A stretch of 64,000 nt of DNA, from positions 1 to 64,000 of the forward strand of contig NZ_JALLPO010000024.1 in assembly GCF_023276435.1 (NCBI RefSeq). Direction: 5' to 3'. The notes under the pieces are model-generated. The model had not been told where the DNA came from, searched no databases, and worked only from the letters and a program-made list of their open reading frames with translations. Below, in pieces: positions 4,336 through 42,930 of this stretch. The stretch comes from Sphaerisporangium perillae. GTDB lineage: Bacteria; Actinomycetota; Actinomycetes; Streptosporangiales; Streptosporangiaceae. Made by a program: the position numbers and the translations under genes. Position 1 is the first letter of the stretch. Each line of letters starts with the position of its first letter.

Positions 4336-4354
4336 GGCGGCAGGATCGCCGCGA

Positions 4355-4373
4355 TCAGCGACGTGGTCGCTGA
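4355..4373. terminator. Hairpin between convergent genes
   Basis: TCAGCGAC, a three-base loop and GTCGCTGA form a perfect 8-bp stem between the ends of the membrane protein gene and the convergent dehalogenase gene. No U-tract follows, as is usual in high-GC actinobacteria. Confidence 0.5.
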
Positions 4374-4427
4374 CCTGGCAGGTGATCCTGATCCTCATGG
4401 TGGTGCCCACGCGCGCGTGAGGTCGCC

Positions 4428-5276: not shown

Positions 5277-5290
5277 GGCATAGCTCCGTT

Positions 5291-18356: not shown

Positions 18357-18472
18357 GGCTTCTCCTTCCTCTCGGACGGACACAGCCTGCGCCGGCGTAC
18401 TTGGAAGCCATCCATGTCCGACTTAAAAGCACCTCCCTGACAAACGGGGACGCGCCGGTTAGCGTGGCCCGA

Positions 18473-23713: not shown

Positions 23714-24976
23714 TCAGTGGGCGGTGGCGGTGCTCACGCGGTAGCTCAGGTAGTCGTTGTCACGATCTATGCCGAGTGCCTGACCGCTGAGGAAGTCCGC
23801 CGCGTCGATGTAGGTGTACGGCTGCATGAACCATCCAGCGCGCACGTCGCGGTAAAGCCGCGACAGCGGGTGCGACGCCCCGTAGCCGGCGCCGCCGACG
23901 ACGGTCAAGCAGTCGTTGACCACCGACTGCGCCAGCCGGTTCACCGCCAGCTTCGCGCACTGGAACGGCACCATCATTCGCCTGCCGCGCTCGTCCAGGT
24001 CACCGGTGAGGTCGTCGTTGAGCGCATCGGCATTGGCGAGCGCCGCTGCGGCCGTGGCCCGAAGCGTGTAGAGGTTGGTCTCGATGTCGGCGACGAGGGT
24101 CCGCACGGCCGCCGGCGGCGCGGTCGATCGGCGCGTGACCGCACCGACGGCGATGTCACGTGCGGCGCGTGCGACGCCGGCGTAGATGCCGAGCATGGTG
24201 ACCGAGCTGACGGTCTGTCCGGCCAGCGCACGGTCGCTGTGCGCACCGATCACTCCCCGGTGCAGCACGTCTTCCGCGGCGACCCGGCACCCGTCGAACA
24301 CGATGTCGTACGTGCCCGACGCGCGCATGCCAAGGCCGTCCCACTCGGGCAGGACCGTCAGCCCGGGTGTCGCGCGGTCGAGGACCGCGGCGGCGAGGGT
24401 GACCGGCTCGCCGTCGACGACCTTCTGGGTGTGCACCAGGAAGTGGGTGGCCATCGGCGCGAGGGTCACCAGCGTCTTGCGGCCGGACAGCAGCCAGTCG
24501 CCGCGCCCGTCGGGCGTCAGCCGGGTCACCGCCGTATGGTGGTCCCTCGCGCCGCCGCAGATCACGAGCCGGTCGGATGCCATGCCCCGCAGCAGCCGCT
24601 CCGCCAGCGCCCGCACCGGCGGCGAGCCGTGTTGCCATTCGTAGGCGAGAGTCAGGCCGCGGCTGAACTGCACGTGCAGGGCGAGCGCGGTGGAGGCGTC
24701 GGCCTCGGCGACGGCGGCCAGCACGGTCGCGACATCGGACAGGCACGAGACCCCCATGCCGCCGAGCTCGGCGGGGACGGTCCCTGCCATGACGCCGTTG
24801 TCGAGGAACCGCTCGAAGGTCTCCGTCGGGAACTCGCCGAACCGGTCGTGGGCGGCGGCGCCGTCCCGGATCCGGGCGACATCCTGCTCTACCAGGGCCA
24901 GCAGGGCTCGGCCGTTCGGCGTGACAGGCGCATCGAACCGTCCGGCAGGCAGGCGAGTGGCGCTCCAAGTCGACAA
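23714..24976 (-). CDS. Acyl-CoA dehydrogenase-fold flavoprotein, possible N-oxygenase
   Basis: About 420 residues if the TTG at 24976 is used; GTG 24925 is an alternative. The FAD fold is complete: N-terminal helical domain, RLLRGMASDRLVICGG, beta-domain with WLLSGRKTLVTLAPMATHFLV, and C-terminal helices ending with RLYRDVRAGWFMQPYTYIDA. The usual active-site Glu of acyl-CoA dehydrogenases (as in YEGTNE) is replaced by MQPYTYI. This fits the flavin monooxygenase branch of the fold, which includes sugar nitrososynthases such as KijD3 and RubN8. Its place near a 3-amino-3-C-methyl sugar cassette makes an N-oxygenase role possible. A plain dehydrogenase remains the alternative. Confidence 0.7.
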   Translation of the reverse strand: MSTWSATRLPAGRFDAPVTPNGRALLALVEQDVARIRDGAAAHDRFGEFPTETFERFLDNGVMAGTVPAELGGMGVSCLSDVATVLAAVAEADASTALALHVQFSRGLTLAYEWQHGSPPVRALAERLLRGMASDRLVICGGARDHHTAVTRLTPDGRGDWLLSGRKTLVTLAPMATHFLVHTQKVVDGEPVTLAAAVLDRATPGLTVLPEWDGLGMRASGTYDIVFDGCRVAAEDVLHRGVIGAHSDRALAGQTVSSVTMLGIYAGVARAARDIAVGAVTRRSTAPPAAVRTLVADIETNLYTLRATAAAALANADALNDDLTGDLDERGRRMMVPFQCAKLAVNRLAQSVVNDCLTVVGGAGYGASHPLSRLYRDVRAGWFMQPYTYIDAADFLSGQALGIDRDNDYLSYRVSTATAH

Positions 24977-25166
24977 TGGACACTCCGGGATGTCTGGGGG
25001 CGATGACGACCTTCGAGTTCAGCGGACGACCGGACCGGCGGCTTGAAATCGAGCGTAACACCGTAAAACGGTGTGGGACCGATGCACGGGCGAACCGCTG
25101 GATAGTGCGCAACTCGGAAGAAAACGCGGCCGCGAGGCGGAACGTGCTGATCGCGGCGCCGGGATC

Positions 25167-26243
25167 TCACGTCGCGCGAAGGTACTGGTCGGGCCGGCGC
25201 GGTCGCACACCCAGCGCGCGGGCGGCCTGCTGCGGCCAGTAAGGGTTGCGCAGCAGTTCACGGCCGAGCAAGACGGCATCGGCCTGACCGGAGGCGAGGA
25301 TCGACTCGGCCTGGTGGGGGTCGGTGATCTGGCCGACCGCGGCCACCGGCCGGTCGATCTCGGCGCGTACCCGGGCCGCGAACGGCACCTGGTATCCGGG
25401 ACCGGTGAGGATCTTCACCTCCGCGGCGTTGCCGCCGCTGGAGATGTCCAGCAGGTCGACGCCATGGGCGTGCAGCTCCTTGGCCAGCCGCACGGTGTCG
25501 TCCACGCTCCAGCCCTGGCCATCGGGGAGCCAGTCGGTGGCCGAGACCCGGAAGAACACCGGCAGCTCCTCGGGCCAGACGGCGCGGACGGCGTCGACGA
25601 CCTCCAGGGCGAAACGGATGCGGTTCTCGAACGGGCCGCCGTAGGCGTCGGTGCGGTGGTTGCTGTGCGGGGAGAGGAACTCGCCGATCAGGTAGCCGTG
25701 CGCGCCGTGGATCTCCGCGACCCGGAAGCCCGCCCGCAGCGCGCGCTCGGCCGCGGCGGCGAAGTCGGCCACGATGCGGCGGATCTGGCCGGCCGGCAGT
25801 TCCTCGGGTGCCGGGTAGCCGTCGGAGAACGGAATCGGGCTGGGCGCGACCGGCCGCCAGCCGCCTTCCGCGGTGCCGAGTGGAGCGCCGCCGCGCCAGG
25901 GCCGGTCGGCCGAGGCCTTACGCCCGGCGTGCGCGAGCTGGATGCCGGGCACGGTGCCGTGCCTGGACAGGAAGCCGGTGATCCGCGTGAACGCCGCCTG
26001 CTGGCGGTCGTTCCACAGGCCGAGGTCGGCGGGGCTGATCCGTCCCTCCGGGGAGACGGCGGTGGCCTCGGTCAGGATCAGTCCGGTGCCGCCCACCGCC
26101 CGGCTCGCGAGGTGGGCGAAGTGCCAATCATGCGGCGCTCCTATCTCCGGGCCGTCGGTGGCGGCAGAATATTGGCACATCGGTGCCATCCAGGCACGGT
26201 TCGGGATGGTCAGCGACCGGAGGGTGATGGGCGCGAAAAGCAT
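25167..26243 (-). CDS. Old yellow enzyme (YqjM-like NADH:flavin oxidoreductase)
   Basis: 358 residues from ATG 26243 with GAGGAG upstream. TIM barrel with FMN: APITLRSLTIPNRAWMAPMCQYSA (the Cys-Gln-Tyr flavin-tuning motif), GIQLAHAGRKAS, AEIHGAHGYLIGEFLSPHSNHRTDAYGGP with the paired His that bind the substrate carbonyl, and DAVLLGRELLRNPYWP. It reduces activated C=C bonds using NADPH. It starts 44 bases after the nucleotidylyltransferase stop and points the same way, so it is probably co-transcribed with the deoxysugar genes. Whether it works on a sugar intermediate is open. Confidence 0.88.
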   Translation of the reverse strand: MLFAPITLRSLTIPNRAWMAPMCQYSAATDGPEIGAPHDWHFAHLASRAVGGTGLILTEATAVSPEGRISPADLGLWNDRQQAAFTRITGFLSRHGTVPGIQLAHAGRKASADRPWRGGAPLGTAEGGWRPVAPSPIPFSDGYPAPEELPAGQIRRIVADFAAAAERALRAGFRVAEIHGAHGYLIGEFLSPHSNHRTDAYGGPFENRIRFALEVVDAVRAVWPEELPVFFRVSATDWLPDGQGWSVDDTVRLAKELHAHGVDLLDISSGGNAAEVKILTGPGYQVPFAARVRAEIDRPVAAVGQITDPHQAESILASGQADAVLLGRELLRNPYWPQQAARALGVRPRRPDQYLRAT

Positions 26244-26287
26244 GAGGATCTCCTCGTTCGCCCCCTTATGCGATGGCAGGGGACGGC

Positions 26288-27160
26288 TCAGTCCAGCGCA
26301 TAAGCGATCTCCGTGAGATGGCGACCGTAGTTCGACTGCCGCATTCCGGCGCCGAGTTCGTAACAGGCCTCGGCGTCGATGAAGCCCATCCGCAGGGCGA
26401 TCTCCTCGAGGCAGGCCACCCGCTCGTCCTGGTGTTTCTCGATGCCCTGCACGTACTGGCTGGCGGCCAGCAGGGAGTCGTAGGTGCCGCAGTCGAGCCA
26501 GGTGCAGTCACGACCCAGCCCGATCAGCCTCGCCCGGCCCTGCTTGAGGTACTCGAGGTTGACGTCGGTGATCTCCAGTTCGCCACGGGGCGAGGGGGCG
26601 AGCCCTCGGGCGATGTCGACGACCTGGTTGTCGTAGAAGTACAGGCCCGTGATCGCGTTGTTCGAGCGCGGTCGCGGCGGCTTCTCCTCGATGGAGACCA
26701 GCATGCCCTCGGAGTCGACCTCGCCGATGCCGTACCGCTCCGGGTCGGGCACGGGGTGGCCGAACAGGGTGCAGCCATCGAGCGACTCCCGGGAGCGGCG
26801 CAGCGATTCCGGGAACCCGGCGCCGTGGAAGAGGTTGTCGCCGAGGATGAGCGCCGAGTTGTCGCCGCCGATGTGGCCGGCGCCGATCAGGAACGCCTCG
26901 GCGATGCCGCGCGGCTCTTCCTGCACCGCGTAGGACAGGTTCAGGCCGAGCTTGGAGCCGTCGCCGAGCAGGCTCCGCATGACCGGGACCGCGGACGACG
27001 TGGATATGATCAAGATGTCGCGGATCCCGGCCAGCATCAGCACCGAGAGCGGGTAGTAGACCATCGGCTTGTTGTAGACGGCGAGCAGTTGCTTCGACGT
27101 CACCAAGGTCAGCGGGAACAGCCGTGTACCGCTGCCGCCGGCGAGAACGATTCCCTTCAT
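26288..27160 (-). CDS. rmlA: Glucose-1-phosphate thymidylyltransferase
   Basis: 290 residues from ATG 27160 with AAGGAG upstream. It makes dTDP-glucose from glucose-1-phosphate and dTTP. Motifs: MKGIVLAGGSGTRLFPLT, SKQLLAVYNKPMVYYPLSVLM, ALILGDNLFHG, GEVDSEGMLVSIEEKP and LGRDCTWLDCGTYDSLLAAS. The length and motif set match the RmlA type used in deoxysugar pathways. It is the activating step of the cassette, and lies between the glycosyltransferase and OYE genes. Confidence 0.92.
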   Translation of the reverse strand: MKGIVLAGGSGTRLFPLTLVTSKQLLAVYNKPMVYYPLSVLMLAGIRDILIISTSSAVPVMRSLLGDGSKLGLNLSYAVQEEPRGIAEAFLIGAGHIGGDNSALILGDNLFHGAGFPESLRRSRESLDGCTLFGHPVPDPERYGIGEVDSEGMLVSIEEKPPRPRSNNAITGLYFYDNQVVDIARGLAPSPRGELEITDVNLEYLKQGRARLIGLGRDCTWLDCGTYDSLLAASQYVQGIEKHQDERVACLEEIALRMGFIDAEACYELGAGMRQSNYGRHLTEIAYALD

Positions 27161-27313
27161 CGAATCTCCTTAGGCGTGGAGACCTCCGCCTTCAGACGGG
27201 GGTGGAAACGCGGCACGGTGTGGAATGGTGTCGGATGGTGCGGCGGGAACTCCGCACGATTCCGGTCCGTTCTTCGCGACCTCACCGAAGACCATCGCGT
27301 GGTCGCCTACGGG

Positions 27314-28603
27314 TCAAGGACGCGACGTGCGGTATTCGGCGGTGAGCTTCTCCAGCGCCGGCACGACATCGTTCGGGGTTGGCATCGCTCGCACCTCGGT
27401 GCGCACCTTGGCGGCGTTCGCCGCGAACGACGGGTCTTCCAGGACCAGCTTGAGACTGTCTCGCAGCACGTCGGCGGTCAGACTGCCGGCATTGACCGCG
27501 TACACCCCGGCGCCGCGGTGCTCCACCGCGTTCGCCATGGCCACCGAACCCCACCATTTCTCGACTTTGAAATCGTTGGGCACGATGATCTGCGGGACGG
27601 CGTGCTCGATCGCCGACGCGAAGGTCCCGCAGCCGCCTTCGTGGACGATCGCCGAACACGTGGGCAGCAGCGCGTTCAATGGGACGAAGTCGACGGCACG
27701 CACATTGTCCGGGAGATTCGGCACCGACTCGAGCTGTTTGGCGTTGAAGGTCGCGACCACCTCGAGGTCGAGGTCGGCCACCGCGTCGAAAAGCTCACTG
27801 GCCGAAGCCGACGTGCCCTCGATGTTGGCATCCCGATGCGAGATGCCCAGCGTTATGCAGACGCGCCTGCGGGTGGGCCGCTCGTACACCCACTTCGGTG
27901 TGGTCGCGGGACCGTTGAACGGCACGTTGCGCATCGGCAGGTAGTGCACGCCGTCCGGCCGCCAGACCCAAAGTGGCATGGGGGAGATGGTCCACTGCCC
28001 GACCGCCGCCGTCTCGTCGAAGTCGCGGCCGTGCTGCTCCAGGAGCGGCTGCAGCCAGTCCCGCAGTGGGTCGCCATCGGAGGCGAACCGGTCCTGGCAG
28101 GCCGCACGTAGCTGGGCCAGCCTGTCCACGGTGAACAGCATCCGGGCATGCGCGGCGCCGACGGCTCGGGCCGCCACCACGCCGGGCAGAGCGGTCGGGT
28201 CCGTGATGACCAGGTCGGGTCGCCACGTACGAGCGAAGCTCACCAGGTCATCGACCGTGGAGTCCGGGTAGAACACCCCATGTACGCCTGAGATGAGGTC
28301 CTTGTATTCGATGTACGGATCGCCCCAGCCGAAGTCGCTCTGTACCGACTTCCCGGTGCGCAGACCCCGCGGGTCGGCGGGCCCCGTCGCCCCGTCGATC
28401 GGCGGCACCTGCGCCACCTTCTCCTCCAGGAGGAGCATTTCGCCGATCGAGATGCCGGGCAGTCCGGTGTGCGCGATGTCGTCGGCCATATCCGGCGGAC
28501 CGGCGATGCACACCTCATGCCCCGCGTTACGGAGCGCCCACGCCATCGGCACCTGCACATACAGGTGTGACTTGAAGGGGTTGGTTACGAAGAGGATCCG
28601 CAT
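27314..28603 (-). CDS. DesVII/EryCIII-type glycosyltransferase
   Basis: 429 residues from ATG 28603 with GGAGG upstream. N-terminal acceptor half begins MRILFVTNPFKSHLYVQVPM; the C-terminal donor half has the nucleotide-sugar signature VHEGGCGTFASAIEHAVPQI. The long middle with WVWRPDGVHYLPMRNVPFNG is typical of macrolide/anthracycline glycosyltransferases of the activator-dependent DesVII group. It would transfer the dTDP-sugar made by this cassette to a hydroxyl (or nitrogen) of an unknown acceptor. A cytochrome P450-like activator (DesVIII/EryCII) is not found in the window. Its gene is divergent from the first methyltransferase. Confidence 0.88.
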   Translation of the reverse strand: MRILFVTNPFKSHLYVQVPMAWALRNAGHEVCIAGPPDMADDIAHTGLPGISIGEMLLLEEKVAQVPPIDGATGPADPRGLRTGKSVQSDFGWGDPYIEYKDLISGVHGVFYPDSTVDDLVSFARTWRPDLVITDPTALPGVVAARAVGAAHARMLFTVDRLAQLRAACQDRFASDGDPLRDWLQPLLEQHGRDFDETAAVGQWTISPMPLWVWRPDGVHYLPMRNVPFNGPATTPKWVYERPTRRRVCITLGISHRDANIEGTSASASELFDAVADLDLEVVATFNAKQLESVPNLPDNVRAVDFVPLNALLPTCSAIVHEGGCGTFASAIEHAVPQIIVPNDFKVEKWWGSVAMANAVEHRGAGVYAVNAGSLTADVLRDSLKLVLEDPSFAANAAKVRTEVRAMPTPNDVVPALEKLTAEYRTSRP

Positions 28604-29128
28604 CGGAGCCCTTCCTCCTAGGTGATGAGCGACAGCGGCTATTCCAGGTGACGCGCCCTGGCGGCAGCCGGCCGGTGGGACCTCTCGGCACACGCCCGAA
28701 ACGGGGGGCGCGCACGCTGCGGACGGTCGCCGCGTCAGTGGGTGGTATCCGGCCGGCTTTTCGTATCGTTAAGGCCCGCTTACTCGAGTCGACGTTCCCC
28801 AGTATGGCGTCAGGCGCCGTCGCGAGCGTCTTCTGGATTGCGTGCTTGGCCATCGCCGGAAGCCATGTGCGGTCGCCGGTCGGGGCGCACCGGCCCTGGC
28901 GGAACCTTTCGCGCCCCCCGGCGGGCGATCGCACCGTGTTCGAGGCGGGCCGGGAATTGAAAGGCGCAGTCATTGAAAAGTGTGCGGGGGGGGGCGGACA
29001 TAGGTGGCAGGAAGTGGTCAGGGGCGTTCAGCTTGCTGCCGCCGGTTTCTCTGGCTCTAGGGCTTTCATTTCCGGAGAGTTGTTCGTGCAAGGACGAAAT
29101 GAAAGCCCTCAGGAAAAGAGACGAAGAA
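28604..29128. other. Intergenic region between divergent glycosyltransferase and methyltransferase
   Basis: About 500 bases with no supported gene. It contains a run of nine Gs within 28983-28993 and probably the divergent promoters of the two halves of the cassette. A possible earlier start of the methyltransferase lies at ATG 29099 (AAGGAC upstream). Confidence 0.4.
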
Positions 29129-29872
29129 ATGACCGGAACCACTTCCACCGACCATTCCGTGCTCTTCGACGCCGAACACGCCAAGCTTTTCGACCTGGTG
29201 TACACCGCACGACGCAAGGACTACGCCGCCGAGTCCAAGGCCGTCGTGCAGCACATCCGCGCGCGCAAGCCCGGCGCCCGTTCGCTGCTGGACGTCGGCT
29301 GCGGCACCGGAGAGCACCTGCGCTCGCTGAAGGACGTGTTCTTCGATGTGGAAGGGCTCGACCTCACCCCCGCCATGCGGGAGCTGGCGAGGAACAAACT
29401 GCCGCAGGTGCCGATCCACGCCGGCGACATGAGCGACTTCGCGCTCCACCGCACCTTCGACGCGGTGATCTGCCTCCACAGCTCGATCGCGTTTCTCCCG
29501 CTGTCACGGTTGAAGCCGGCGATCGCCTGTATGGCGCGGCACCTCAACCCTGGAGGGGTGCTCATCGTCGAGCCGTGGTACTCGCCGGAGCGGGCAACCG
29601 ACCGCACCGTGGTCAGTGACATCGTGCGCCGGGACGACGGCCTGACCATCGCGCGCGTGTCGCGCGGCGTCATCCGTGACGGCGAGCACCACCTGGAGAC
29701 GCACTTCATCGTGGCCGACGCCGACGGCGTCCGTCACTCCGCCGACACCCAGGTGATGGGCATCTTCCGGCGGGAGGAGTATCAAGCCGCGTTCGCCGGG
29801 GCGGGCTGTGATCCGGAGTACTTCGAGGACGGACTGGCCGGCCGAGGACTGTTCGTCGCGGTCCGCCGCTGA
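29129..29872 (+). CDS. TylM1/DesVI-like sugar N-methyltransferase
   Basis: 247 residues from ATG 29129; ATG 29099 is an in-frame alternative. SAM-binding motif SLLDVGCGTGEHLRSL, then VEGLDLTPAMRELA, GDMSDFALHRTFDAVICLHSSI, the RHLNPGGVLIVEPWYSPE motif of this subfamily and the GRGLFVAVR ending. Relatives TylM1 and DesVI N,N-dimethylate 3-amino groups of TDP-sugars. It is a paralogue of the methyltransferase at 35360. Two such enzymes in one cassette suggest two methylation steps, or that one of them has shifted to an O-methylation. Confidence 0.85.
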   Translation: MTGTTSTDHSVLFDAEHAKLFDLVYTARRKDYAAESKAVVQHIRARKPGARSLLDVGCGTGEHLRSLKDVFFDVEGLDLTPAMRELARNKLPQVPIHAGDMSDFALHRTFDAVICLHSSIAFLPLSRLKPAIACMARHLNPGGVLIVEPWYSPERATDRTVVSDIVRRDDGLTIARVSRGVIRDGEHHLETHFIVADADGVRHSADTQVMGIFRREEYQAAFAGAGCDPEYFEDGLAGRGLFVAVRR

Positions 29873-29939
29873 CCATGCCGCCTTCGCCGAACCCCGCGGC
29901 CTCGCCCTTGCGCAGATGGTGGATGATCGTGCGGTTGGT

Positions 29940-30953
29940 TCAGGCGGGTGCGGTCGCCGCCAGATCGCCGTCCGGCGTCGCGCCGCTGTCGGGCAGGGCG
30001 AGCCACCACGGGTTCTCCCGCGCCCACTCGATCGTCCTGGTGAGACCCTCGCGCAGGTCCGTCGCGCACCGCCACCCGAGCATTCCTCTGATCTTGCTCG
30101 TGTCCGGGACCCGCCTGCGCAGGTCCTGGTAGCGGCCGCCGAGCCGGTCCCGCGTTTCGATCGGCACGCTCGCCTCGGCGCCGGTCAGCTCCGCGACCAG
30201 AGCGCTCAGCCGGGCCACCGTGGTCTCGACCGAGCTGCCGACGTTGAAGCACTCCCCGAAGGCGTTCTCGCTCGTGGCGACGGCGATCGTCGCGTTGACC
30301 GCGTCCTGGACATAGGTGAAGCACCGCGTCTGGCCGCCGCCGTCGTACACGACCGGCGGCTCCCCGTTCAGGGCCCGGTGGATGCTCCTGCTGACGACGA
30401 ACGCCGGCCGCTGCCGCGGGCCGTACACGTTGAAGTAGCGCACGATGGCCGTTCTGAGCCCGCGGTCGCGGGCGAAGGCGAAGGCGAGATGCTCGCCCAG
30501 CGCCTTGCTGGAGGAATAGCACCAGCGGTCGACGGCGGTGCTGCCCAGCACCCGGTCGTCGTCCTCTCGCCACGGGACCGCGGGGTTCTTCCCGAACACC
30601 TCGCTCGTGCTCGCGACGACGACCTTCGCGCCCGCCCTCGCGGCCAGGTCCAGCAGGTTCCGGGTGCCGAGCAGGTTGATGTCGATGACGTCGAGCGGAC
30701 GGTCGAGATAACGATCGACCCCGACGACGGCGGCGAAGTGGTAGACGGTGTCCACGCCGTCCTTCACCACCTCGGCCAGCCGTGCCGCGTCCCGGATGTC
30801 ACCGGTCACGTAACTGACCGAGGGCGGCGGCGACTGGCCGGGGGGCGGCGCGCCGCCGTCGAACACGGTGACCTCGTCGCCGCGCCGGACCAGTTCGTCG
30901 ACCAGATGACTGCCCAGGAACCCGCATCCTCCGGTTACCACGACCCGCGCCAT
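29940..30953 (-). CDS. NDP-glucuronate decarboxylase-like SDR
   Basis: 337 residues from ATG 30953. Extended SDR: Rossmann VVVTGGCGFLGSHLVDELVRRG, STSEVFG, WCYSSSKALGEHLAF with catalytic Tyr and Lys (YxxxK), RYFNVYGPRQRP and DLREGLTRTIEWARE. The STSEVFG plus WREDDDRVLGSTAVDRWCYSSSK block is that of glucuronate decarboxylases/CalS9-like enzymes rather than RmlB 4,6-dehydratases. It starts five bases after the dehydrogenase stop, so the two are coupled: oxidation of C6 followed by its loss yields a pentose. This assignment is family-based inference. Confidence 0.78.
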   Translation of the reverse strand: MARVVVTGGCGFLGSHLVDELVRRGDEVTVFDGGAPPPGQSPPPSVSYVTGDIRDAARLAEVVKDGVDTVYHFAAVVGVDRYLDRPLDVIDINLLGTRNLLDLAARAGAKVVVASTSEVFGKNPAVPWREDDDRVLGSTAVDRWCYSSSKALGEHLAFAFARDRGLRTAIVRYFNVYGPRQRPAFVVSRSIHRALNGEPPVVYDGGGQTRCFTYVQDAVNATIAVATSENAFGECFNVGSSVETTVARLSALVAELTGAEASVPIETRDRLGGRYQDLRRRVPDTSKIRGMLGWRCATDLREGLTRTIEWARENPWWLALPDSGATPDGDLAATAPA

Positions 30954-30958
30954 GACCG

Positions 30959-32308
30959 CTACCTTCCGATTCCCCGGTAGGCGAAACCATGACGCCGGAA
31001 CCGGCCGATGGTCTCGCGCGAGTAGTAGGCGCGGCCGTCGATGATGACGCACGACGGCGCCACCGACTCCCGGAGCGCGACGAAGTCGATGTCGTCGAAC
31101 TCGTCGTGCCGCGCCAGCACGGCGATGCAGTCGGCGCCGGACAGCGCCTCCCGCGCCGTCTCCACCGGCGCCAGCCCGAAGGTCTTCTTGACCTCGCCGG
31201 AGTCGGCGAGCGGGTCGAAGATGGCGACCTCGGCGCCGCCCTGCTGCAACCCGGTCACGATCGGCAGCGCCGGGGTCGCGCGAAGGTCACCGGTGTTGTT
31301 CTTGAACGCCACGCCGAGCACCGCGATCTTCGCCTCCTCCAGCTTCTTGCCGAACCTGGCCAGCTCCTCGACGATCAGGTCGACGGTGTAACCCGGCATG
31401 GAGTCGTTGACCTCACGCGCGACGGGGATCGTGTCCAGTTCGACGTCGCGGTCGCGGGCGGCCCGCCACACCATCCACGGATCCTTGGTCAGGCACGACC
31501 CGCCGACGCCCACGCTCGGCAGCAGGATGTTGACGTTTCCGGTGCCCTTGCGCATCGTGTTCGTCGCGGAGATCACCTCCAGCACGTCGACGTCCAGCAC
31601 GGCGCACAGTGTGGCCAGCTCGTTGGCCATCGCGATGTTGTGGTCGATCCACCAGTTGCTCGCCAGCTTCACCATCTCGGCGCTCTCCATCGACGCGCAC
31701 GAGATGATCTCGGCGCCGATCGTCCGCCGCCAGAACGCGCCCGCGGCGGCCACGCTGTCGGGGCACCATCCGCCGATGGCTATCGGGAACGTCCTCAGCT
31801 CGTGCAGGGCCTGCCCCTCCGACAGCCGCTCGGGGCAGAAGGCCAGCCCGAAGTCCTCGCCCACCTTCAGCCCGCCGCCCTCCAGCAGCGGGGCGACGAG
31901 GTTCCTGGACACACCCGGAGGCACTGTGCTCTTGAGGATCACGAGCTGGCCTTCGCGCAGATGGCCGGCCAGTTCCGTGCACGCGGTCCGCAGTGGCACG
32001 TCGACGAGTTCGGTGTCCCGGACCGGTGTGCTCACGGCGATGATCACCACGTCCACGCCGGACACCAGGTCGTAGTCGGTGGTGACCCGCAGCCGGCCCG
32101 AGTCCAGGCCGCTGTACAGCAACTCGGGCAGCCCCGGCTCGCTGAACCAGCAACGGCGTTGCTCCAACGCCGCGACCAGCGCCGGATTGACGTCGATTCC
32201 CACGACGTCCACGCCTTCGCCGGCAAGGACCGCCGCTACGGTCGACCCCACATAACCCATTCCGATTACCGCGGCGGAGGTATTCCCCTGATCAGACAAG
32301 AATTTCAT
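30959..32308 (-). CDS. Nucleotide-sugar (UDP/TDP-glucose) 6-dehydrogenase
   Basis: 449 residues from ATG 32308. NAD-binding GMGYVGSTVAAVLAGEGV near the N-terminus, middle helices with WWIDHNIAMANELATLC, and the catalytic cysteine at about residue 271 in GVGGSCLTKDP. The C-terminal domain carries VLGVAFKNNTGDLRATPA. It converts the C6 alcohol of NDP-glucose to an acid in two NAD steps. In calicheamicin and related pathways the homologue (CalS8) uses TDP-glucose and is followed by a decarboxylase, which is exactly the next gene here. Confidence 0.88.
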   Translation of the reverse strand: MKFLSDQGNTSAAVIGMGYVGSTVAAVLAGEGVDVVGIDVNPALVAALEQRRCWFSEPGLPELLYSGLDSGRLRVTTDYDLVSGVDVVIIAVSTPVRDTELVDVPLRTACTELAGHLREGQLVILKSTVPPGVSRNLVAPLLEGGGLKVGEDFGLAFCPERLSEGQALHELRTFPIAIGGWCPDSVAAAGAFWRRTIGAEIISCASMESAEMVKLASNWWIDHNIAMANELATLCAVLDVDVLEVISATNTMRKGTGNVNILLPSVGVGGSCLTKDPWMVWRAARDRDVELDTIPVAREVNDSMPGYTVDLIVEELARFGKKLEEAKIAVLGVAFKNNTGDLRATPALPIVTGLQQGGAEVAIFDPLADSGEVKKTFGLAPVETAREALSGADCIAVLARHDEFDDIDFVALRESVAPSCVIIDGRAYYSRETIGRFRRHGFAYRGIGR

Positions 32309-32531
32309 GGGTCACCCACTCTCAGGATGTGCCGATTGGCATACGAACAGCGTGTCAACCGGCACGTCGGGACGCATCTCCTGTGATGCCGTGACCCTTT
32401 TCACCGCGCCCGGGCCGCGCGGGTCCGCGGGCCCTGGATCGCACCGTTCCGCACCGCAATCCAGAAGGTGCGTCGCAAAGCCCGGTCGTACGACGATGCA
32501 GGCAGTCATACGACCTCATGGGGAGCCTCCG

Positions 32532-33956
32532 GTGCCTTCGCGACTCAATCAGCTCGACATGAGCATGCCCGTCGACCTCGCTGCCCGCGTCACCGCCTCG
32601 GCACGGACGACCGAGTCACGGGTGAGCCCCGGCGACGTCGGTGACTGGCTCGACGAGAAGCGAAGGCAGCCGTTCGAGAGCACCCTGATCGCACTGGACG
32701 AACTGACCGAACCAAAGGGATGGCGCTTCGCCGCCGACACCGGGAATCTGGAACACCACAGTGGCCGGTTCTTCACCGTCGAAGGAATGCACGTCAGGAC
32801 GAACCACGGTCACGTAAGAGAGTGGTGGCAGCCCATTCTCGTACAACGGGACATCGCCATCCTCGGAATAATCGCCAAGGAGTTCGACGGCGTCCTGCAT
32901 TTTCTGCTGCAGGCCAAGATGGAACCCGGCAACGCCGACATGGTGCAGTTGTCACCCACCGTCCAGGCGACGTCCAGCAACTACACCCAAGTGCATCGCG
33001 GAACGCGCGCCCCGTATGTCGAGTACTTCACCGAGCCGGGGCGGGGCCGGACCCTCGTCGACGTCCTCCAGTCGGAACAGGGCGCCTGGTTCCATCTGAA
33101 GCGCAACCGGAACATCGTCGTCGAGGTCACCGACGACGTGCCCCTCCACGAGGACTTCTGCTGGCTGACTCTCGGGCAGATCCGCCGGCTGCTCCAACGG
33201 CGCAACGTCATGAACATGGACGCCCGGACGGTCCTGGGGTGTCTGCCCATCGCGGCCCCGGCGAGCGGACCGGACCGCGGGAACATGTCCGGCAGCGCCC
33301 TGTGGCACTCTCCGGAGCCCGGCGGCATGCACTCGATGACGGAGATCCTCAGCTGGTTCACCGGCCGCAAGAGCGAGTACGAGCTGTCCGCCCGGCTGGT
33401 TCCACTGAACTCCCTGGTGGGGTGGCGCCAGGACAGCGAAAGAATCTTCCGTGAGGACGGCAGGAACTTCAGCATCGTCGGCGTGCGGGTGAACGCCCGG
33501 ACCCGCGAGGTGCACAGCTGGAAGCAGCCGCTGCTGGCGCCGCACGGCCTCGCCCTGGCCGGGCTGGTGGTCCGGCGCATTGGCGGAAGGCTGCACGCGC
33601 TGGTGCGCGCCGAAGTCCTGCCGGGCTACCGGGACACGGTGGAGCTCGGCCCCACCGTGCGGTTCATGATGAACGACTACGGCGCCACCCCGGCGGATCA
33701 TCGCCCGGAATTCCTCGAGTACATGCTGCTGGCGCGGGAGGGCGTCCGCTACGACGTCGTGCAGTCCGAGGAGGGAGGGCGTTTCCATCTCGCCGAGACC
33801 CGCTACCTCGTGGTGGAGGCCGACGACGACTTCCCCCTGCTGGTGCCGCCGGATTTCGCCTGGATCACGGTCGAGCAGTTGCTGGAGCTGCAACGGCACA
33901 GCTACTACCTCAGCATCGAGGCCAGAACCCTGCTCTTGTGCCTGAACAACCTGTGA
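32532..33956 (+). CDS. NDP-hexose 2,3-dehydratase family protein
   Basis: 474 residues from GTG 32532 (GGGGAG upstream; ATG 32496 is an alternative). The protein is an internal duplication, each half with a WWQPI/WKQPL strand, [23 protein letters not shown] and [15 protein letters not shown]. This is the EvaA/TylX3/DnmT family, which removes water from a 4-keto NDP-sugar to give the 3,4-diketo-2-deoxy sugar. It is divergent from the dehydrogenase gene, with a shared promoter region of about 220 bases, and is followed 34 bases later by the aminotransferase. Confidence 0.88.
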
Positions 33957-33990
33957 CAGAAAAATCGATCCCAAAGGAGTTCGTGCACCG

Positions 33991-35103
33991 ATGGCCATTC
34001 ATGTATGGGACCACCGCCGGGAGTACGAGAACGAGCGTGCGGACATCCTCGACGCGGTCGACACCGTGTTCCGCTCGGATCAGCTCATTCTCGGCGAGAG
34101 TGTGCGGGGCTTCGAGGAGGAGTTCGCCGGCTATCACGGAGTGGCGCACTGCGTCGGGGTCGACAACGGCACCAACGCGGTCAAGCTCGGCCTGCAGGCC
34201 CTGGGCATCGGCCCCGGCGACGAGGTCATCACCGTGTCCAACACCGCGGCGCCGACCGTGCTGGCCATCGACGGGGCGGGCGCCACTCCCGTGTTCGTCG
34301 ACGTGCGTCCCGGCACCTACCTCATGGACACCGACCAGGTGGCCGGTGCCATCACCGAGCGGACCAAGTGCCTGGTCCCGGTGCACCTCTACGGCCAGTG
34401 CGTGGATCTCGCCCCGCTCCAGGAACTGGCGGCGCGCCACGGCCTGAAGATCCTCGAGGACTGCGCCCAGGCGCACGGGGCGCACGGCTCGAACGGCCGG
34501 CTGGCCGGGACGACCGGTGACGCGGGCGCGTTCTCCTTCTACCCGACCAAGGTTCTCGGCGCGTACGGCGACGCCGGCGGCGTGATCACCTCCGACGACG
34601 AGACCGAGCAGAACCTGCGCCGGCTCCGGTACTACGGGATGGAGGACCGCTACTACGTGGTGCGCACGCCGGGGCACAACGCGCGGCTCGACGAGGTGCA
34701 CGCGGAGATCCTGCGCCGCAAGCTCCGCCGGCTGGACGACTACATCGCCGCCCGCCGTGCGGTCGCACAGCGTTACGCCGAGGGACTCAAGGACACCGGG
34801 TTGCTCCTGCCGGAGGTGGCCCCGGGCAACGACCATGTCTACTACCTCTACGTCGTGCGCCATCCCGAAAGGGACGAGATCCTCAAGGCGCTTCGCGAGT
34901 TCGACTTCAGCTTCCGCGTCAGCTACCCGTGGCCTGTGCACACCATGACCGGATTCGCGCACCTGGGCTACGCCAACGGCGACCTCCCGGTGACCGAGCT
35001 CGCCGCCAACGAGATCTTCTCCCTTCCGATGTACCCGTCGCTGCCGGAGGACCTCCAGGACAAGGTCATCACCGTCCTGCGCGACATCCTCGCCCGCGGC
35101 TGA
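33991..35103 (+). CDS. PLP-dependent NDP-sugar 3-aminotransferase (EvaB/DnmJ type)
   Basis: 370 residues from ATG 33991 with AAAGGAG upstream. DegT/DnrJ/EryC1 fold. The start [67 protein letters not shown] and catalytic Lys near residue 186 in [16 protein letters not shown] match 3-aminotransferases of the daunosamine and vancosamine pathways rather than 4-aminotransferases. It would use L-glutamate to aminate the 3-keto group produced by the 2,3-dehydratase. A perfect 14-bp hairpin follows the stop. Confidence 0.9.
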
Positions 35104-35125
35104 CGGCGCGCCGCCGCGACGCGAC

Positions 35126-35168
35126 GATCCCGGCATGAGCCGGCCTCCATGGCCCTCATGCCGGGATC
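35126..35168. terminator. Strong terminator hairpin after aminotransferase gene
   Basis: GATCCCGGCATGAG and CTCATGCCGGGATC form a 14-bp perfect stem around a 15-base loop. It lies between the plus-strand aminotransferase gene and the convergent methyltransferase. Confidence 0.8.
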
Positions 35169-35242
35169 GGTGCGTTGAGCAAGGCTGGACCCGGCATGGG
35201 CGATCGCATGAGTCCTGGCGGGGAACGTGGACGGCCGCAACC

Positions 35243-35314
35243 GAGAAGTGCCCTCCGTACTGGTCGCCGGAAGCCTCAAGGGCTCCCGTCATCCCAGTTC
35301 GAAGGGCACTTCTC
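35243..35314. repeat. 72-bp near-perfect inverted repeat (MITE-like or cruciform)
   Basis: Two arms of about 33 bases separated by five bases. The outer 21 bases of the left arm (GAGAAGTGCCCTyCGwACTGG) match the reverse complement of the right arm at 19 of 21 positions; the inner part pairs less well. It lies between two convergent genes, behind a separate strong terminator, so it is not simply the terminator. It may be a solo transposable-element end or structured RNA. Confidence 0.6.
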
Positions 35315-35359
35315 CGCGTTCCAGGGCCCTGAGCCGGTCACCGCTCGGTGGGCCCAGGC

Positions 35360-36088
35360 TCAGGACTTGACGCCGATGAGGAGGCCCGGGCGGTCCCGGC
35401 CGGTCTGGAGGAACTCGACAGAGGCGACTCCCGCCTCGGCGAACGCCGTCTCGTACTCGTGCCGGCTGAACAGCGACAGCATGTGGAGATCGGTGAAGTG
35501 CCGGATGCCGGATTCGGCATCGGCCACCAGGTAGTGCGCCGTCATGCGGTGGGCTCGGCCCTCCACCACCGTGTGGGAGAGCCGGGAGATGGTCTGTCCG
35601 CCGACCGTGACGACGTCACCCATGACGCGCCCGGACAGCGCGTTGTCCGGGAAGTACCAGGGCTCGACGACGAGGACGCCACCCGGCTTGAGATGCCGGC
35701 CGAAGCAGCGCAGCGCCGCGTTCAGCTGACCGGCGTCGTCCAGATAGCCGATCGCGCTGAACAGGCAGGTGATCGCGTCGAACCGCCGATCGAGACGGAA
35801 GTCCTTCATGTCGCCCTGGTGCAGCGGCACCCCCGGCAGCCTCTTCTGGGCGACCCGGAGCATGTCCTCGGCCAGGTCGACGCCCTCCACATGCTCGAAC
35901 GCGTCCGCGAAGGAGCGGAGGTTCCTCCCGGTGCCACAGGCCACGTCCAGCAGCGCGGAGGCGGAGGCGTTGCGCTCGCGGATGTACTTGACCAGCGTCT
36001 GGGAATCGGCCTCGTACGACCTGCCGCGCCCCTCGTAGAGGGCGTCGTATATCTCGGCGTTGCGGTAGATCGGCGACAGCTCGTCCAT
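35360..36088 (-). CDS. TylM1/DesVI-like sugar N-methyltransferase, second copy
   Basis: 242 residues from ATG 36088, two bases after the stop of the C-methyltransferase. Motifs: ALLDVACGTGRNLRSFADAFEHVEGVDLAEDM, GDMKDFRLDRRFDAITCLFSAIGYL, RHLKPGGVLVVEPWYFPDNALSG and the DRPGLLIGVKS ending. It is closer to TylM1/DesVI (ACGTG, FSAIGYL, EPWYFPDN) than the copy at 29129, so it is the better candidate for N-methylation of the 3-amino group. It is read from the complementary strand, in an operon with the C-methyltransferase. Confidence 0.87.
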   Translation of the reverse strand: MDELSPIYRNAEIYDALYEGRGRSYEADSQTLVKYIRERNASASALLDVACGTGRNLRSFADAFEHVEGVDLAEDMLRVAQKRLPGVPLHQGDMKDFRLDRRFDAITCLFSAIGYLDDAGQLNAALRCFGRHLKPGGVLVVEPWYFPDNALSGRVMGDVVTVGGQTISRLSHTVVEGRAHRMTAHYLVADAESGIRHFTDLHMLSLFSRHEYETAFAEAGVASVEFLQTGRDRPGLLIGVKS

Positions 36089-36090
36089 GG

Positions 36091-37308
36091 TCAGACCACC
36101 CGCACTTCGGGCACGTACAGGATCCACTGGCCGCCGGCCTCGCGGAACTGCTCTTCCTTCGCCATGATCTCCCCGGCGTGGTTCCAGGCGAAGAGCAGCG
36201 CGTAGTCCGGGTAGGAGGCGGCGAAGGCTTCCGACGGCCGGACCGGGATGTGCGCGCCGGGGCTCAGCCGATGCTGCTTGGCCGGAGTCGAGTCGCACAC
36301 GTAGGACACCAGATCGGGTCCTATGCCGCAGAAGTTGGTGACGGTCGCGCTCTTGGCCGTCGCGCCGTAGCCGACGACGGTCTTGCCGTTCTCCCGCAGG
36401 GAGCGCAGCAGACCGGCCAGGTCGTCGCGGATGCGGCTCACCGAGGACGCGAAGCCCTGGAGCACCTCGGGCTCCGCCAGGCCCTGGGCGTTCTCCTGGG
36501 CCAGCATCTGGGCCACCGACGGGGTCGGCTGCCGGGCGCCGGCACGGGCGAGCGAGTAACGGACCTCCCCGCCGTGCACCGGCAGCCGCTCCACGTCCAC
36601 CAACTCGAACCCGAACCGCTCGGCCATCGTCTGCACGGAACGAACCGAGAACAGATAGAAATGCTCATCGTAGATCTGGTCGAACGAGGTCTTCTCCACG
36701 ATGTCCCCCAGATAGGGGTCCTCGAAGACGAAGACGCCGCCGGGGCTGAGTAACGCGTCCACACCGCGCAGGAGCGAGTCCAGGTACGGAATATGACAGA
36801 TGGTGTTCGCCGAGAAGATCACGTCGGCCGGCCCTTCGGCCTCGCGGACGGCGACCGCGGTGGACTCCTCGAAGAAGTCGGTGCGCACGCGCACACCCCG
36901 CTCCCGCGCGACCTCCGCCACCCCTGTGGAGGGCTCGAACCCCAGATGGCGAATTCCGGACTCGGCGATCGTCCGCAGCAGGACCCCGTCGTTACAGCCG
37001 ATCTCGACGAAGAAGGGATCCGCGGCGCCGAGCTCGGTCTCGACGAAACCCAGGGCGGTCCGGGTGAAGTGCTCCCGCATCACCGACGACCCGGACGAGT
37101 AGTACGGGTAGTCGTGGTGGAACATCCGCTCGCGCGGAACCTCCTCGATCAACTGGACCATCGTGCAGGCCACGCAGCGTCCGACGGCGAGCCTGTAGAA
37201 GAACTCCGCGTCGACGTCGGCCGGGCGCGGGAACGCGTCGGAGAGCGGCTGGCGTCCGAGATCCAGGAACTCCTCGACCACACCGCCGCAGATTCGGCAT
37301 TCGGTCAC
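36091..37308 (-). CDS. NDP-sugar 3-C-methyltransferase (EvaC/TylC3 type)
   Basis: 405 residues from GTG 37308 with GGAGG upstream. N-terminal zinc-binding domain ECRICGG...CVAC, the start LGRQPLSDAFPRPADVD, SAM-binding EIGCNDGVLLRTIAESGI, ANTICHIPYLDSLLRGVDALLSPGGVFVFEDPYL and a C-terminal domain with VGYGATAKSATVTNFCGIG. This is the family of EvaC, TylC3 and NovU. EvaC homologues methylate C3 of a 3-amino-4-keto-2,3-dideoxy sugar, giving a branched sugar. Together with the 2,3-dehydratase and 3-aminotransferase it forms the vancosamine-type EvaA-EvaB-EvaC trio. Confidence 0.88.
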   Translation of the reverse strand: MTECRICGGVVEEFLDLGRQPLSDAFPRPADVDAEFFYRLAVGRCVACTMVQLIEEVPRERMFHHDYPYYSSGSSVMREHFTRTALGFVETELGAADPFFVEIGCNDGVLLRTIAESGIRHLGFEPSTGVAEVARERGVRVRTDFFEESTAVAVREAEGPADVIFSANTICHIPYLDSLLRGVDALLSPGGVFVFEDPYLGDIVEKTSFDQIYDEHFYLFSVRSVQTMAERFGFELVDVERLPVHGGEVRYSLARAGARQPTPSVAQMLAQENAQGLAEPEVLQGFASSVSRIRDDLAGLLRSLRENGKTVVGYGATAKSATVTNFCGIGPDLVSYVCDSTPAKQHRLSPGAHIPVRPSEAFAASYPDYALLFAWNHAGEIMAKEEQFREAGGQWILYVPEVRVV

Positions 37309-37486: not shown

Positions 37487-40400
37487 CTACGACCAGCCTT
37501 GCAGGCCGGCTCCGTATGGGTAGAGGGGGTTGCCGTACGTGGTCGGGACGGTCTGGGCCGCGTCGATGCGGGCACGGATCTCTGAGCGCTGGGCGGCGGT
37601 GGCGCCCAGGTCGTAGGGGATGTTCCAGTCCTCGACGGCGTCGGCGAGGACGTCGGTGCCGCCGGGCACGAGGATCTGGTCGAGGCTGCGCGGCAGCTGC
37701 CAGGGCAGGCGGCCGCTGGGTGTGTAGTCGCCGAACAGGAGGGCGGCGGTGGCCGGGCCGACCTCCTCGCCGCCCCGGTAGGTCATGACGATGGCGTCGG
37801 CGAGCCCGTTCCACTCGGTGATCACGGTGGGCCGCGGCAGGTCCATGACCACGACCACCGGGATCCCCTGGTTCTTGAAGTTCTGGATGATGGCCAGCTG
37901 GTCGGCGGGCAGCTGGGGTTGTTCCTTCACCCAGGCGGTGGCGTGCGTGTAGGTCGGCTCGCCGACGGCCACGATGGCGAGCTTCGGCGACGGCCCGGTG
38001 TCCTGGTACACGTTGACGCCCGCGGTGGCCGCCCGCGCCTTGATCGCGTCGAGGAGGTTCAGCGAGCCGTGCTCCTGGTGGAAGTAGCTCGTCCAGATGC
38101 AGCAGGCCGTGCCGTCGGTGGCCCGCGGGCCGGCGACGACGATGTTGTCGCCCGCCTTGAGCTTGATCGGCAGGACGCCGTTGTTCTTCAGCAGCGTGTT
38201 GGACTCTCGGGCGGCCTGGTTGGCGAGCGCGACGTACGACGGCTGGTGGAAACGGTAGGGGCCGTTCACCGGGTCGCCGTAGGGGTGGTCGAACACGCCC
38301 ATGGTGAACTTGAGGCGCAGGACCCGGGTCACCGCGTCGTTGATCCGCGCGATCGGGACGCCGGCGAGGAAGCTCGCCATGGTGAACCCGGCCGCGCCGG
38401 GGTCGGCCCCGCCCATCACGTCGGACCCGGCGTTCGCGGCCTTCGTCCATACCGTGGACGGCAGCCAGTCGGTGGTGATGAGACCGGTGTAGCCGAGGTT
38501 GTTGCGCAGGTAGGCGAGGATCGGGGCGCTGTCGCCCGCGCCCGAGCCGCCCGGGTCGAGGTAGGAGCTTCCGGCGTAGCCCGGCATGATGTTGACCGCG
38601 CCCGCCTCGATCGCGGCGCGGAACGGGATCATGTGGTACTTGATCGTCACCGCGTCGTAGGTGATCCCGGCCTCGCCGCCCGCGCCCTCGCCCGGCCAGT
38701 GCTTGACGGTCGCCAGCACCGAACCGGGGTTGAGCTCGGGGCCACCCTGGAGCCCGGCCACCAGCGCGCGGACCTGGGCGGCCGCGACGTCGGCGTTCTC
38801 GCCGTTGCCCTCCTGGATGCGCGGGTAGAGGACCTTGGTGCCGACCTCGGCGAGCGGGCCGAGGACGCCGCGCGCCCCGACCTCCAGTTCCTCGCGGCGC
38901 TGCATGTCGCCGAGCTTGTAGTCGAGCGCGTAGTTCTTCGCCGCGGCGAGCGCGCTCTGGAGCGGGTAGGTGGTCTGGTACCCGGCGATGGTGTCGCCCG
39001 CCGAGACCGGCGGGATGCCGAGCCGGGTCCCGGCCGCGCCCAGCAGGACGTTGTGCAGGTCGTTCGGCAACGCCGGGCCGAAGTGCCAGCCCGAGAGCGG
39101 GTAGACCTGGGCGTTGTAGAACATCTGGTACGCCTTCTCCTCAGGGGTCATCCTGCTGAGAAGGTCGTTGACCCGGGTCTCGACCGGCAGCCGCCAGTTC
39201 TCGTACGGCTCGATCGCCCCGTTCTTGTTGAGGTCGCGGGCGCCGTTGACGACGCCGACGCCGTCGGAGACCTGCTCGATGTCGGGCAGGTACAGGCTGA
39301 AGGTGCGGATGTTCGACGTGGTCCTGGCGCCCGAGCCGCTCACCGCGACGACGTACCACTTGTAGGTCCACCGGTCGGGGATGTCCCAGGCCGGCGTGTA
39401 GCTCGTACCGGCCGGCTCGGCGACCTTGGTGTACAGGTCGATCAGGTTGCCCGGCGCGGTGAAGTCGTAGTCGGTGCGGCTGACGTTCAGCCAGACCTCG
39501 TAGCGTGCCGCGCCGGAGACGGCCGCCCAGGAGAGCGCGGGCCGCCGGGTGTCGGTGATCATGGCCTTGTCGGCGGGGGCGGACAGCGCGAACTGGCCGG
39601 TGGTCGCCGGGGCCTTGGCCGGCGCGGACAGCAGCGGCGGGGCCGTGGCCGCGGTGTCGACCGTGCCGAAGACCTGGAACTCCCACAGCGAGTAGCCGTA
39701 GCCGGTCGCCCTGGACGTCCCGGAGAACCGGACGTAACGGCCGTTGCCCGTGACGTTCAGGTTCTCGACGCCGCCCTTGCCGGTGGTCGTGGAGTAGATG
39801 GGCGTCCAGGACGTGCCGTTGTCGGACACGTCGATGTGGTAGCCGGTGGCGTAGGCGGTCTCCCAGTTGAGCGTCAGCCCGGTGATGTGCCCGGCGCCGC
39901 CGAGGTCCACCCGCAGCCACTGGTCGTCGGAGGACAGGCTCGACCAGCGGGTGGTCGTCCGGCCGTCGAGCGCCGCCGCCGGAGCGTTGCCGCCCTCCCA
40001 GGACGAGGCCGTCACCTGCTTGTAGGCCGAGATCGGCGTCCCGCTCGGTGGGGTGGTGCCGCCGCTGGTGTAGACGGCGAACTCCCAGAGGGAGTAGCCG
40101 TAGCCGGTGGCGCGGGCGGTGCCGTACATCCGGACGTAGCGCCCGGACCCGGTGACGTTCAGGGTCTGGGCGCCGCCGGAGCCGGTCGTGGTGGTGTAGA
40201 TGGACGTCCAGCTCGTCGCGTTGTCGGAGACCTGGATCTGGAAGCCGCTGGCGTAGGCGGCCTCCCAGTTGAGGACGACCTTGCAGACGGACTTCACCGA
40301 GCCGAGGTCGACCTGGAGCCACTGCGGGTCGCCGGCCGCGCTGGACCAGCGCGTTCCGGGGTCGCCGTCGACGGCCGCCGAGGCGGGCATCCCGGCGTTC

Positions 40401-40963: not shown

Positions 40964-40988
40964 GGGGTTCTCCTGTGCGTGCGGGCGG

Positions 40989-42749: not shown

Positions 42750-42930
42750 GGCAGCTCCTCTTCGATGGAGCGGCGGACCGCGGTCCCGCGCCCGTCGCGG
42801 CGAGCCTGTGCGTCCCGTGCCGGGCCGCCGGTCGCCGCCGCCGTCCGCGATGCCCGCCCACCGCTCCCGAGGGCGGCGCGCCCAGGCCGGGCAGAGCCTC
42901 AGGCGCGCCGCCGGTCAGCGGTGCTCGGAA

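Follow-up and report, generated by a model that had tools for sequence, protein, structure and literature searches.

Which sugar is assembled by a compact block of deoxysugar genes in the soil actinomycete Sphaerisporangium perillae, and onto which molecule would that sugar be placed? The block lies on contig NZ_JALLPO010000024.1 (C38), of which we analysed positions 1-64000 of 157349 bases (the window) together with the remainder of the 9.3 Mb genome, which comprises 120 contigs. Genes were called by codon-position GC and assigned to families using NCBIfam and Pfam cut-offs together with the best PDB matches. A first-pass annotation had named or implied nine sugar genes at 26288-37308 and proposed that they make a branched 3-amino-2,3-dideoxypentose unlike any described sugar; all nine are present at full length with the codon-position GC typical for genes of this contig, the family scans agree, and thus the observation is confirmed, while its interpretation is partly supported. 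The block shared with three other Sphaerisporangium species is wider (23714-37308) and includes a sugar nitrososynthase, which the first-pass annotation missed, as it missed the relatives of the cassette in enediyne clusters. On balance we favour the reading that 23714-37308 is a self-contained deoxysugar module which, from an unlinked locus, provides a 2,3-dideoxy-3-C-methyl pentose carrying nitrogen at C3 to the enediyne of its own genome.

The backbone enzymes point to a pentose. Besides RmlA, a glucose-1-phosphate thymidylyltransferase (26288-27160, minus strand; TIGR01207, 396.6 bits vs a cut-off of 360.65), the cassette encodes a CalS8-like thymidine diphosphate (TDP)-glucose 6-dehydrogenase (30959-32308, minus strand; TIGR03026, 367.6 vs 189.8 bits), which matches CalS8 (4xr9) at E 9.9e-145 and the next structure at 2.3e-59, as would be anticipated for a CalS8-type C6 dehydrogenase. 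The extended short-chain dehydrogenase/reductase (SDR; 29940-30953, minus strand) has the uridine diphosphate-glucuronate decarboxylase 4lk3 as its best PDB match (175 bits, 1.8e-50), compared with 132 bits and 2.7e-37 for the best TDP-glucose 4,6-dehydratase (1r66), and it stays below the NCBIfam cut-off for 4,6-dehydratases (161.9 vs 365.1 bits). It carries the motif TSEVFG, and the S-E pair is kept in 72/72 SDR relatives (from 72 of the 79 loci related to the cassette); TDEVYG is found in two of the three 4,6-dehydratases (RmlB) of the same genome, the third being missed by the pattern used. We take the S-E pair to mark decarboxylases and the D-E pair to mark 4,6-dehydratases. By family placement the SDR is classed as glucuronate decarboxylase-like and not as a 4,6-dehydratase, and together with the dehydrogenase (the pentose pair) it supports the pentose branch proposed by the first-pass annotation. 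The further statement that no 4,6-dehydratase is present holds for the cassette and for C38, where the model hits only two places, the SDR at 161.3 bits and, weakly at 30.9 bits, positions 57851-58486, neither of which exceeds the cut-off. It does not hold for the genome: the genome-wide search that had been called for returned three RmlB that exceed the cut-off, encoded on C48, C32 and C50.

Because of these three enzymes a hexose, the outcome that the first-pass annotation itself had named as refuting its proposal, is conceivable. RmlB from elsewhere would then give TDP-4-keto-6-deoxyglucose, from which the 2,3-dehydratase, aminotransferase, C-methyltransferase and nitrososynthase would form a vancosamine- or evernitrose-like hexose; the pentose pair would belong to another pathway or yield a plain pentose as a second sugar. 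In genomes G074 and G212, enediyne-linked relatives of the nitrososynthase, aminotransferase and 3-C-methyltransferase genes (the nitro triad) are accompanied by no RmlB and no pentose pair over the 40 kb read, so that supply from another locus seems to occur, and in loci of G079, G131 and G260 the triad, RmlB and the pentose-type SDR stand together. Against this, one glycosyltransferase and the pentose pair are found in 4/4 Sphaerisporangium copies of the cassette and RmlB in none, and likewise the stretches read of Actinomadura alba, G129, G021 and G175 contain the pentose pair but lack RmlB. An L-hexose would also need a 3,5-epimerase, and there is none among the cassette genes, the search not having been extended genome-wide; a pentose lacks a C5 centre and can be made with no epimerase, in keeping with the epimerase-free content of the cassette. 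We therefore regard the hexose route as quite improbable. On C50 of the window's genome, a 4,6-dehydratase lies together with a second EryCIII-like glycosyltransferase (2108-5346), possibly another glycosylation cluster.

The remaining enzymes of the pentose reading place nitrogen and a methyl branch at C3. An EvaA-type nucleoside diphosphate-sugar 2,3-dehydratase (32496-33956, plus strand; EvaA 4j7g, 1.7e-126; Pfam cut-off passed) is the sole one found genome-wide. The DegT-family sugar aminotransferase (33991-35103, plus strand) has 7b0d, QdtB (3frk) and 2oga, which we take to be DesV, as its top PDB matches, with CalS13 at just 1.1e-17; QdtB and DesV act at C3. Full-length DegT enzymes of the genome are confined to C32 (two), C38 and C48. 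No C4 aminotransferase of the CalS13 or TlmJ-like type was recognised in the window, where the TlmJ-like enzyme of pathway relatives matches at 32%, at the C3-type gene. Those relatives, in Planobispora, Salinispora and S. verrucosisporus, carry a TlmJ-like aminotransferase, a Gfo/Idh/MocA oxidoreductase and a different C-methyltransferase (in S. verrucosisporus, whose aminotransferase was the one tested, the best structure is TlmJ at 4.8e-154). The C-methyltransferase of the window (36091-37308, minus strand; Pfam cut-off passed) is closest to the sugar 3-C-methyltransferase 5t64 (7.4e-207), presumably KijD1, and then to TcaB9 (4.2e-197). Family placement thus supports each of the pentose branch, C3 amination and the C3-methyl branch, in agreement with the positions assigned in the first-pass annotation.

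The protein encoded at 23714-24976 (minus strand) extends this picture. It is an acyl-CoA dehydrogenase by Pfam and passes the cut-off of no NCBIfam model; its best PDB matches are 3m9v (1.1e-156) and 4kcf (1.2e-156), both of which we take to be KijD3, followed by the nitrososynthase 3mxl (1.5e-150) and DnmZ (4zxv, 2.6e-122), and the next acyl-CoA dehydrogenase-type chain follows at 4e-28. These matches indicate a flavin-dependent sugar N-oxygenase of the KijD3/ORF36/DnmZ type. The gene adjoins the cassette in all three syntenic loci (L015-L017; 83-87% identity), and within the genus it is present in exactly those 4/11 sampled genomes that hold this SDR at >=84% identity and absent from the other seven. 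It occurs in 25 of 297 genomes of the family, 21 of them outside the genus. Eleven of these 21 loci were examined, eight because an SDR or the enediyne marker UnbV shares their contig and the other three because of their high identity; all 11 have the aminotransferase (70-74%) and the C-methyltransferase (64-77%) within ~10 kb of the nitrososynthase. In the stretches read, RmlB is found in 6/11, the pentose-type SDR in 5/11 (four with the dehydrogenase) and UnbV in 4/11, the proportions of the SDR and UnbV being biased by the choice of loci. Since 23714-24976 encodes a nitrososynthase next to a C3 aminotransferase and a 3-C-methyltransferase, and no 4,6-dehydratase exceeds the cut-off on C38, the window holds a set of the nitrosugar type on a pentose backbone, with the pentose pair replacing the 4,6-dehydratase. 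The branched C3-amino pentose proposed earlier is therefore supported but incomplete as an end product, the adjoining nitrososynthase pointing to oxidation of the 3-amine.

The same combination recurs in another genus: in G175 the nitrososynthase, the triad, the pentose pair and UnbV lie within ~25 kb, with no RmlB in the 40 kb read, and the locus further encodes one epimerase/RmlD-like protein and another whose N-terminal domain is of the MycE-type methyltransferase kind, so that the same chemistry may operate there inside one cluster. Separately, nitrososynthase, C3-type aminotransferase and 3-C-methyltransferase genes were seen at most ~20 kb from UnbV in G074:C50, G212:C61 and G063:C5 (L172-L177), where the sequence read shows no pentose pair; nitrosugars on enediynes may therefore be more widespread than this cassette. 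Loci L164-L171 (G013, G079, G131, G260) combine many glycosyltransferases with the nitro triad and the pentose-type SDR and are, to our eye, reminiscent of orthosomycin (everninomicin-type) clusters.

What becomes of the nitrogen is complicated by two sugar N-methyltransferases, 43-44% identical to each other: one at 29129-29872 (plus strand), with CalS10 (6uk5, 1.5e-65) as its best PDB match, and one of the N,N-dimethyltransferase DesVI/TylM1 type at 35360-36088 (minus strand; 3bxo, 9.5e-74). The two DesVI/CalS10-type enzymes speak for a simple 3-dimethylamino-3-C-methyl pentose, with the nitrososynthase acting on another substrate or being a passenger, and so does its absence, at E 1e-80, from A. 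alba (G099) and G129. This outcome is nevertheless unlikely in our estimate, as the nitrososynthase is kept in all four Sphaerisporangium copies, is absent from the seven other sampled members of the genus and accompanies the same aminotransferase and C-methyltransferase in every extra-genus locus examined. For kijanose, the predicted substrate of the N-methyltransferase is a further amine, carried at C4 (PMC10951976). On the finished sugar of the cassette the nitrogen may be a dimethylamino, N-hydroxy, nitroso, nitro or nitrone group.

Comparison with known pathways locates the cassette between two kinds of them. The maduropeptin route (MdpA1-A6) resembles it in leading from TDP-glucose through TDP-glucuronate, decarboxylation, a C3-methyl branch and amination to a sugar that goes onto a nine-membered enediyne with a beta-tyrosine-derived unit; it differs in having its nitrogen at C4, and the portion of the source available to us names no 2,3-dehydratase and mentions no N-oxygenase (PMC10951976). 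The claim that no such sugar had been described accordingly stands only in part, given that a C3-methyl-branched aminopentose proposed to arise by the same TDP-glucuronate route exists in maduropeptin, with the nitrogen at a different carbon. The calicheamicin and AT2433 pathways (CalS/AtmS) share the CalS8-like dehydrogenase, the decarboxylase, the 2,3-dehydratase and the CalS10-like N-methyltransferase (AtmS steps: PMC10951976). Unlike the cassette, they aminate at C4, through an enzyme (CalS13) distant from that of the window, and no C-methyl step is named for them in the passages available. Nor was their 2,3-reductase giving a 3-hydroxyl found: a Gfo/Idh/MocA candidate (L035:12977-14029), the family to which we take AtmS12 to belong, has no match in the window, in the stretches read of the genome's own contigs or in L015-L017. 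With kijanose and evernitrose (KijD1-KijD3, ORF36) the cassette shares the 2,3-dehydratase, the C3 aminotransferase, the 3-C-methyltransferase and the nitrososynthase, but those sugars are 6-deoxyhexoses formed through a 4,6-dehydratase, and here the pentose pair stands instead. The vancosamine pathway (EvaA-E) is similar in its 2,3-dehydratase, aminotransferase and C-methyltransferase types and dissimilar in that the cassette genes include no 4,6-dehydratase, epimerase or 4-ketoreductase. Judged by its genes, the system combines a TDP-aminopentose pathway like those of calicheamicin and maduropeptin with a nitrosugar set like those of kijanose and evernitrose. In kijanose the aminotransferase KijD2, the C-methyltransferase KijD1 and the flavoprotein KijD3 are described as acting in this order (PMC10951976).

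All nine genes, with their order unchanged, recur in three of the 79 related loci, those of Sphaerisporangium melleum, Sphaerisporangium corydalis and Sphaerisporangium sp. TRM90804 (69-91% identity), so the arrangement is not due to chance. The four copies share the cassette genes only: in the stretches compared, no flanking gene is common at 60% identity and 60% length (for S. melleum, ~4 kb of the right flank were compared), and the cassette is apparently a separate, mobile module. Window positions 46.5-62.6 kb are syntenic with G206:C92:86.7-102.4 kb (a contig of 329,667 bases) and partly with G157:C73. An exact empty insertion site was considered and rejected, as the synteny with G206 ends 9 kb short of the cassette, and no convincing repeats bracket the cassette, those found being short and imperfect.

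The genome also holds a cluster of the type that makes enediynes, antibiotics that cleave DNA. Contig C70 encodes a 1929-residue polyketide synthase (PKS) of KS-AT-KR-DH organisation, UnbV, two DUF1702 proteins and a thioesterase homologue; the synthase is taken to be of the enediyne type from this gene company, and it was set against no labelled enediyne PKS. C53 carries a beta-tyrosine module with a tyrosine aminomutase 82% identical to the Planobispora enzyme, which itself scores 917.4 bits against TIGR03832 (cut-off 501). Many C70 proteins match the Planobispora cluster, and C70 is without the sugar genes found there between an acyltransferase and a hydroxylase. Relatives of the cassette sugar genes are found neither on C70 nor in the first 40 kb of C53. 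Likewise, no cassette genes lie near the S. melleum and S. corydalis enediyne clusters in 80 kb each, nor in the further stretches compared.

The link between module and enediyne comes from other genomes. A full-length PKS homologue is present in 10/10 genomes tested (two in A. alba; TRM90804 also has a more distant one, 47%) and a tyrosine aminomutase of >=78% identity in 9/10. On A. alba contig G006:C6 (214,848 bases), the PKS at 114483 and the aminomutase at 149639 share the contig with the SDR, dehydrogenase, 2,3-dehydratase, aminotransferase and C-methyltransferase at 81-88% identity; the match to the second N-methyltransferase is partial there, covering 27% of the protein. In the single-contig genome G129, the PKS at 3.269 Mb, the aminomutase and six cassette genes (83-90%) reaching to 3.321 Mb look like one intact cluster. 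A split cluster, with the PKS 2 Mb from the sugars as suggested by UnbV at 5.33 Mb, was rejected for G129 given the full-length PKS homologue at 3.269 Mb; the UnbV-like gene at G129:C1:5327860 (L151), with a partial thioesterase match, lies 2 Mb from the PKS cluster. Across the 297 genomes, the pentose-type SDR (counted at >=56% identity, excluding the partial match of G297 and all weaker ones) is found in 66 and UnbV in 115; both are found in 54, on the same contig in 32 and within 100 kb in 28 (Fisher p 4.7e-16, relatedness ignored). Within the genus such co-occurrence was rejected as evidence because UnbV is present in all 11 sampled members.

The glycosyltransferase of the module, an EryCIII-like, activator-dependent enzyme (27314-28603, minus strand) that passes TIGR04516 narrowly (442.3 vs 440), is 66-70% identical to those in the enediyne-linked loci of Planobispora, G129, A. 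alba and G021. This bears on the alternative that the pentose is made for a different, unlinked aglycone and that the link to enediynes is ancestral only. Such a reading would account for cassette and enediyne cluster lying on separate contigs in all four species, for flanking genes not being shared among cassette copies and for sister species that hold core genes without a cassette. It is countered by the similarity of the glycosyltransferase just given, by the lack of any glycosyltransferase relative on C70 or in the first 40 kb of C53, the EryCIII-N family being found in this genome on C38, C50 and C66 only, and by the finding of no other natural-product core among the annotated flanking genes (part of the window's genes being annotated). 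We hold another aglycone to be doubtful, and delivery to the enediyne, as we infer it, is the best-supported use of the sugar.

Several findings weigh against the module supplying a nitrogen-bearing pentose to the enediyne. Cassette and enediyne PKS are on different contigs in 4/4 Sphaerisporangium genomes, none having the cassette inside the cluster; in S. corydalis the cassette is ~35 kb and the cluster ~10 kb from the nearer contig ends, placing them at least ~45 kb apart, and in S. melleum the contig ends permit a distance as small as ~7 kb. UnbV is found in 11/11 sampled genus members, 12 of the 66 genomes with the pentose-type SDR have no UnbV, and G138, G157 and G206 hold sister core genes in genomes with neither the pentose-type SDR nor the nitrososynthase (in G206, UnbV is on a contig other than the one syntenic with the window). 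As for the sugar, the RmlB on C48, C32 and C50 could feed the pathway, among NCBIfam models the aminotransferase scores highest with PseC and stays below that cut-off (213.6 vs 423.5), and no 4-ketoreductase is found among the cassette genes, a genome-wide search not having been made; a candidate is present in G175. The sugar offers one nitrogen, for which the nitrososynthase and both N-methyltransferases compete, and the nitrososynthase is missing from A. alba and G129 as given above.

Under the favoured reading, the chemical steps, their order and the transfer to the enediyne would run as follows. RmlA would form TDP-glucose, the CalS8-like enzyme would oxidise C6 to give TDP-glucuronate, and the SDR would take off C6 as CO2 to leave a 4-keto-pentose. 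The 2,3-dehydratase would convert this to a 2-deoxy-3,4-diketo sugar, onto whose C3 the aminotransferase would place nitrogen and the C-methyltransferase a methyl group. The nitrososynthase would then oxidise the nitrogen (to a hydroxylamine, nitroso or nitro group) and/or the nitrogen would be N-methylated, and the module's own glycosyltransferase would attach the sugar to the product of the beta-tyrosine-type, probably nine-membered, enediyne cluster of C70 and C53. The more specific prediction from these genes, a nitro- or nitroso-bearing C3-methyl-branched 2,3-dideoxypentose on a nine-membered enediyne, delivered by a mobile module at an unlinked locus, is put forward tentatively, at less than even chances. 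Such a sugar is to our knowledge undescribed, and a literature search covering the accessible sources, most subscription journals lying outside it, returned no paper in which a nitrososynthase or a nitrosugar is linked to an enediyne.

Around the module, an old-yellow-enzyme family NAD(P)H:flavin oxidoreductase (25167-26243, minus strand) is of uncertain membership: it adjoins the cassette in L016 and L017 and has no match in L015. A SARP regulator at 18401-21949 was rejected as part of the module, having no match in L015-L017. No P450-like glycosyltransferase activator is found among ten annotated flanking proteins, the search being confined to these and not made genome-wide, and the window contains no tRNA. 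At 37487-45090, the cassette is flanked by two large glycoside hydrolases (GH3 and GH64), in which F5/8-type domains are repeated, and by another large open frame; in the other three Sphaerisporangium species these are not found beside it. In Salinispora oceanensis (G004:C1, ~4.715 Mb; L229:8170-10716), a PKS fragment of 58 amino acids and UnbV fragments, free of N runs, lie ~25 kb from aminomutase and sugar genes and look like a decayed core, a full PKS being at 5.22 Mb. In G003 (L238, L240, L241) and G117 (L203-L206, L230, L231, L234), the contig with the enediyne PKS is not the one with the beta-tyrosine genes, and both sets of genes lie well away from the ends of their contigs; core and tailoring genes may be dispersed in the genus.

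If the favoured reading is true, the decarboxylative pentose route and nitrosugar formation, known to us only apart, would be joined on an enediyne. With the cassette enzymes it can be tested directly whether a pentose is a substrate for a nitrososynthase and a 3-C-methyltransferase. The arrangement further suggests that the sugar can be overlooked when enediyne genomes are read one cluster at a time, as here, where the core looks sugarless and a near-complete sugar module lies elsewhere in the genome.

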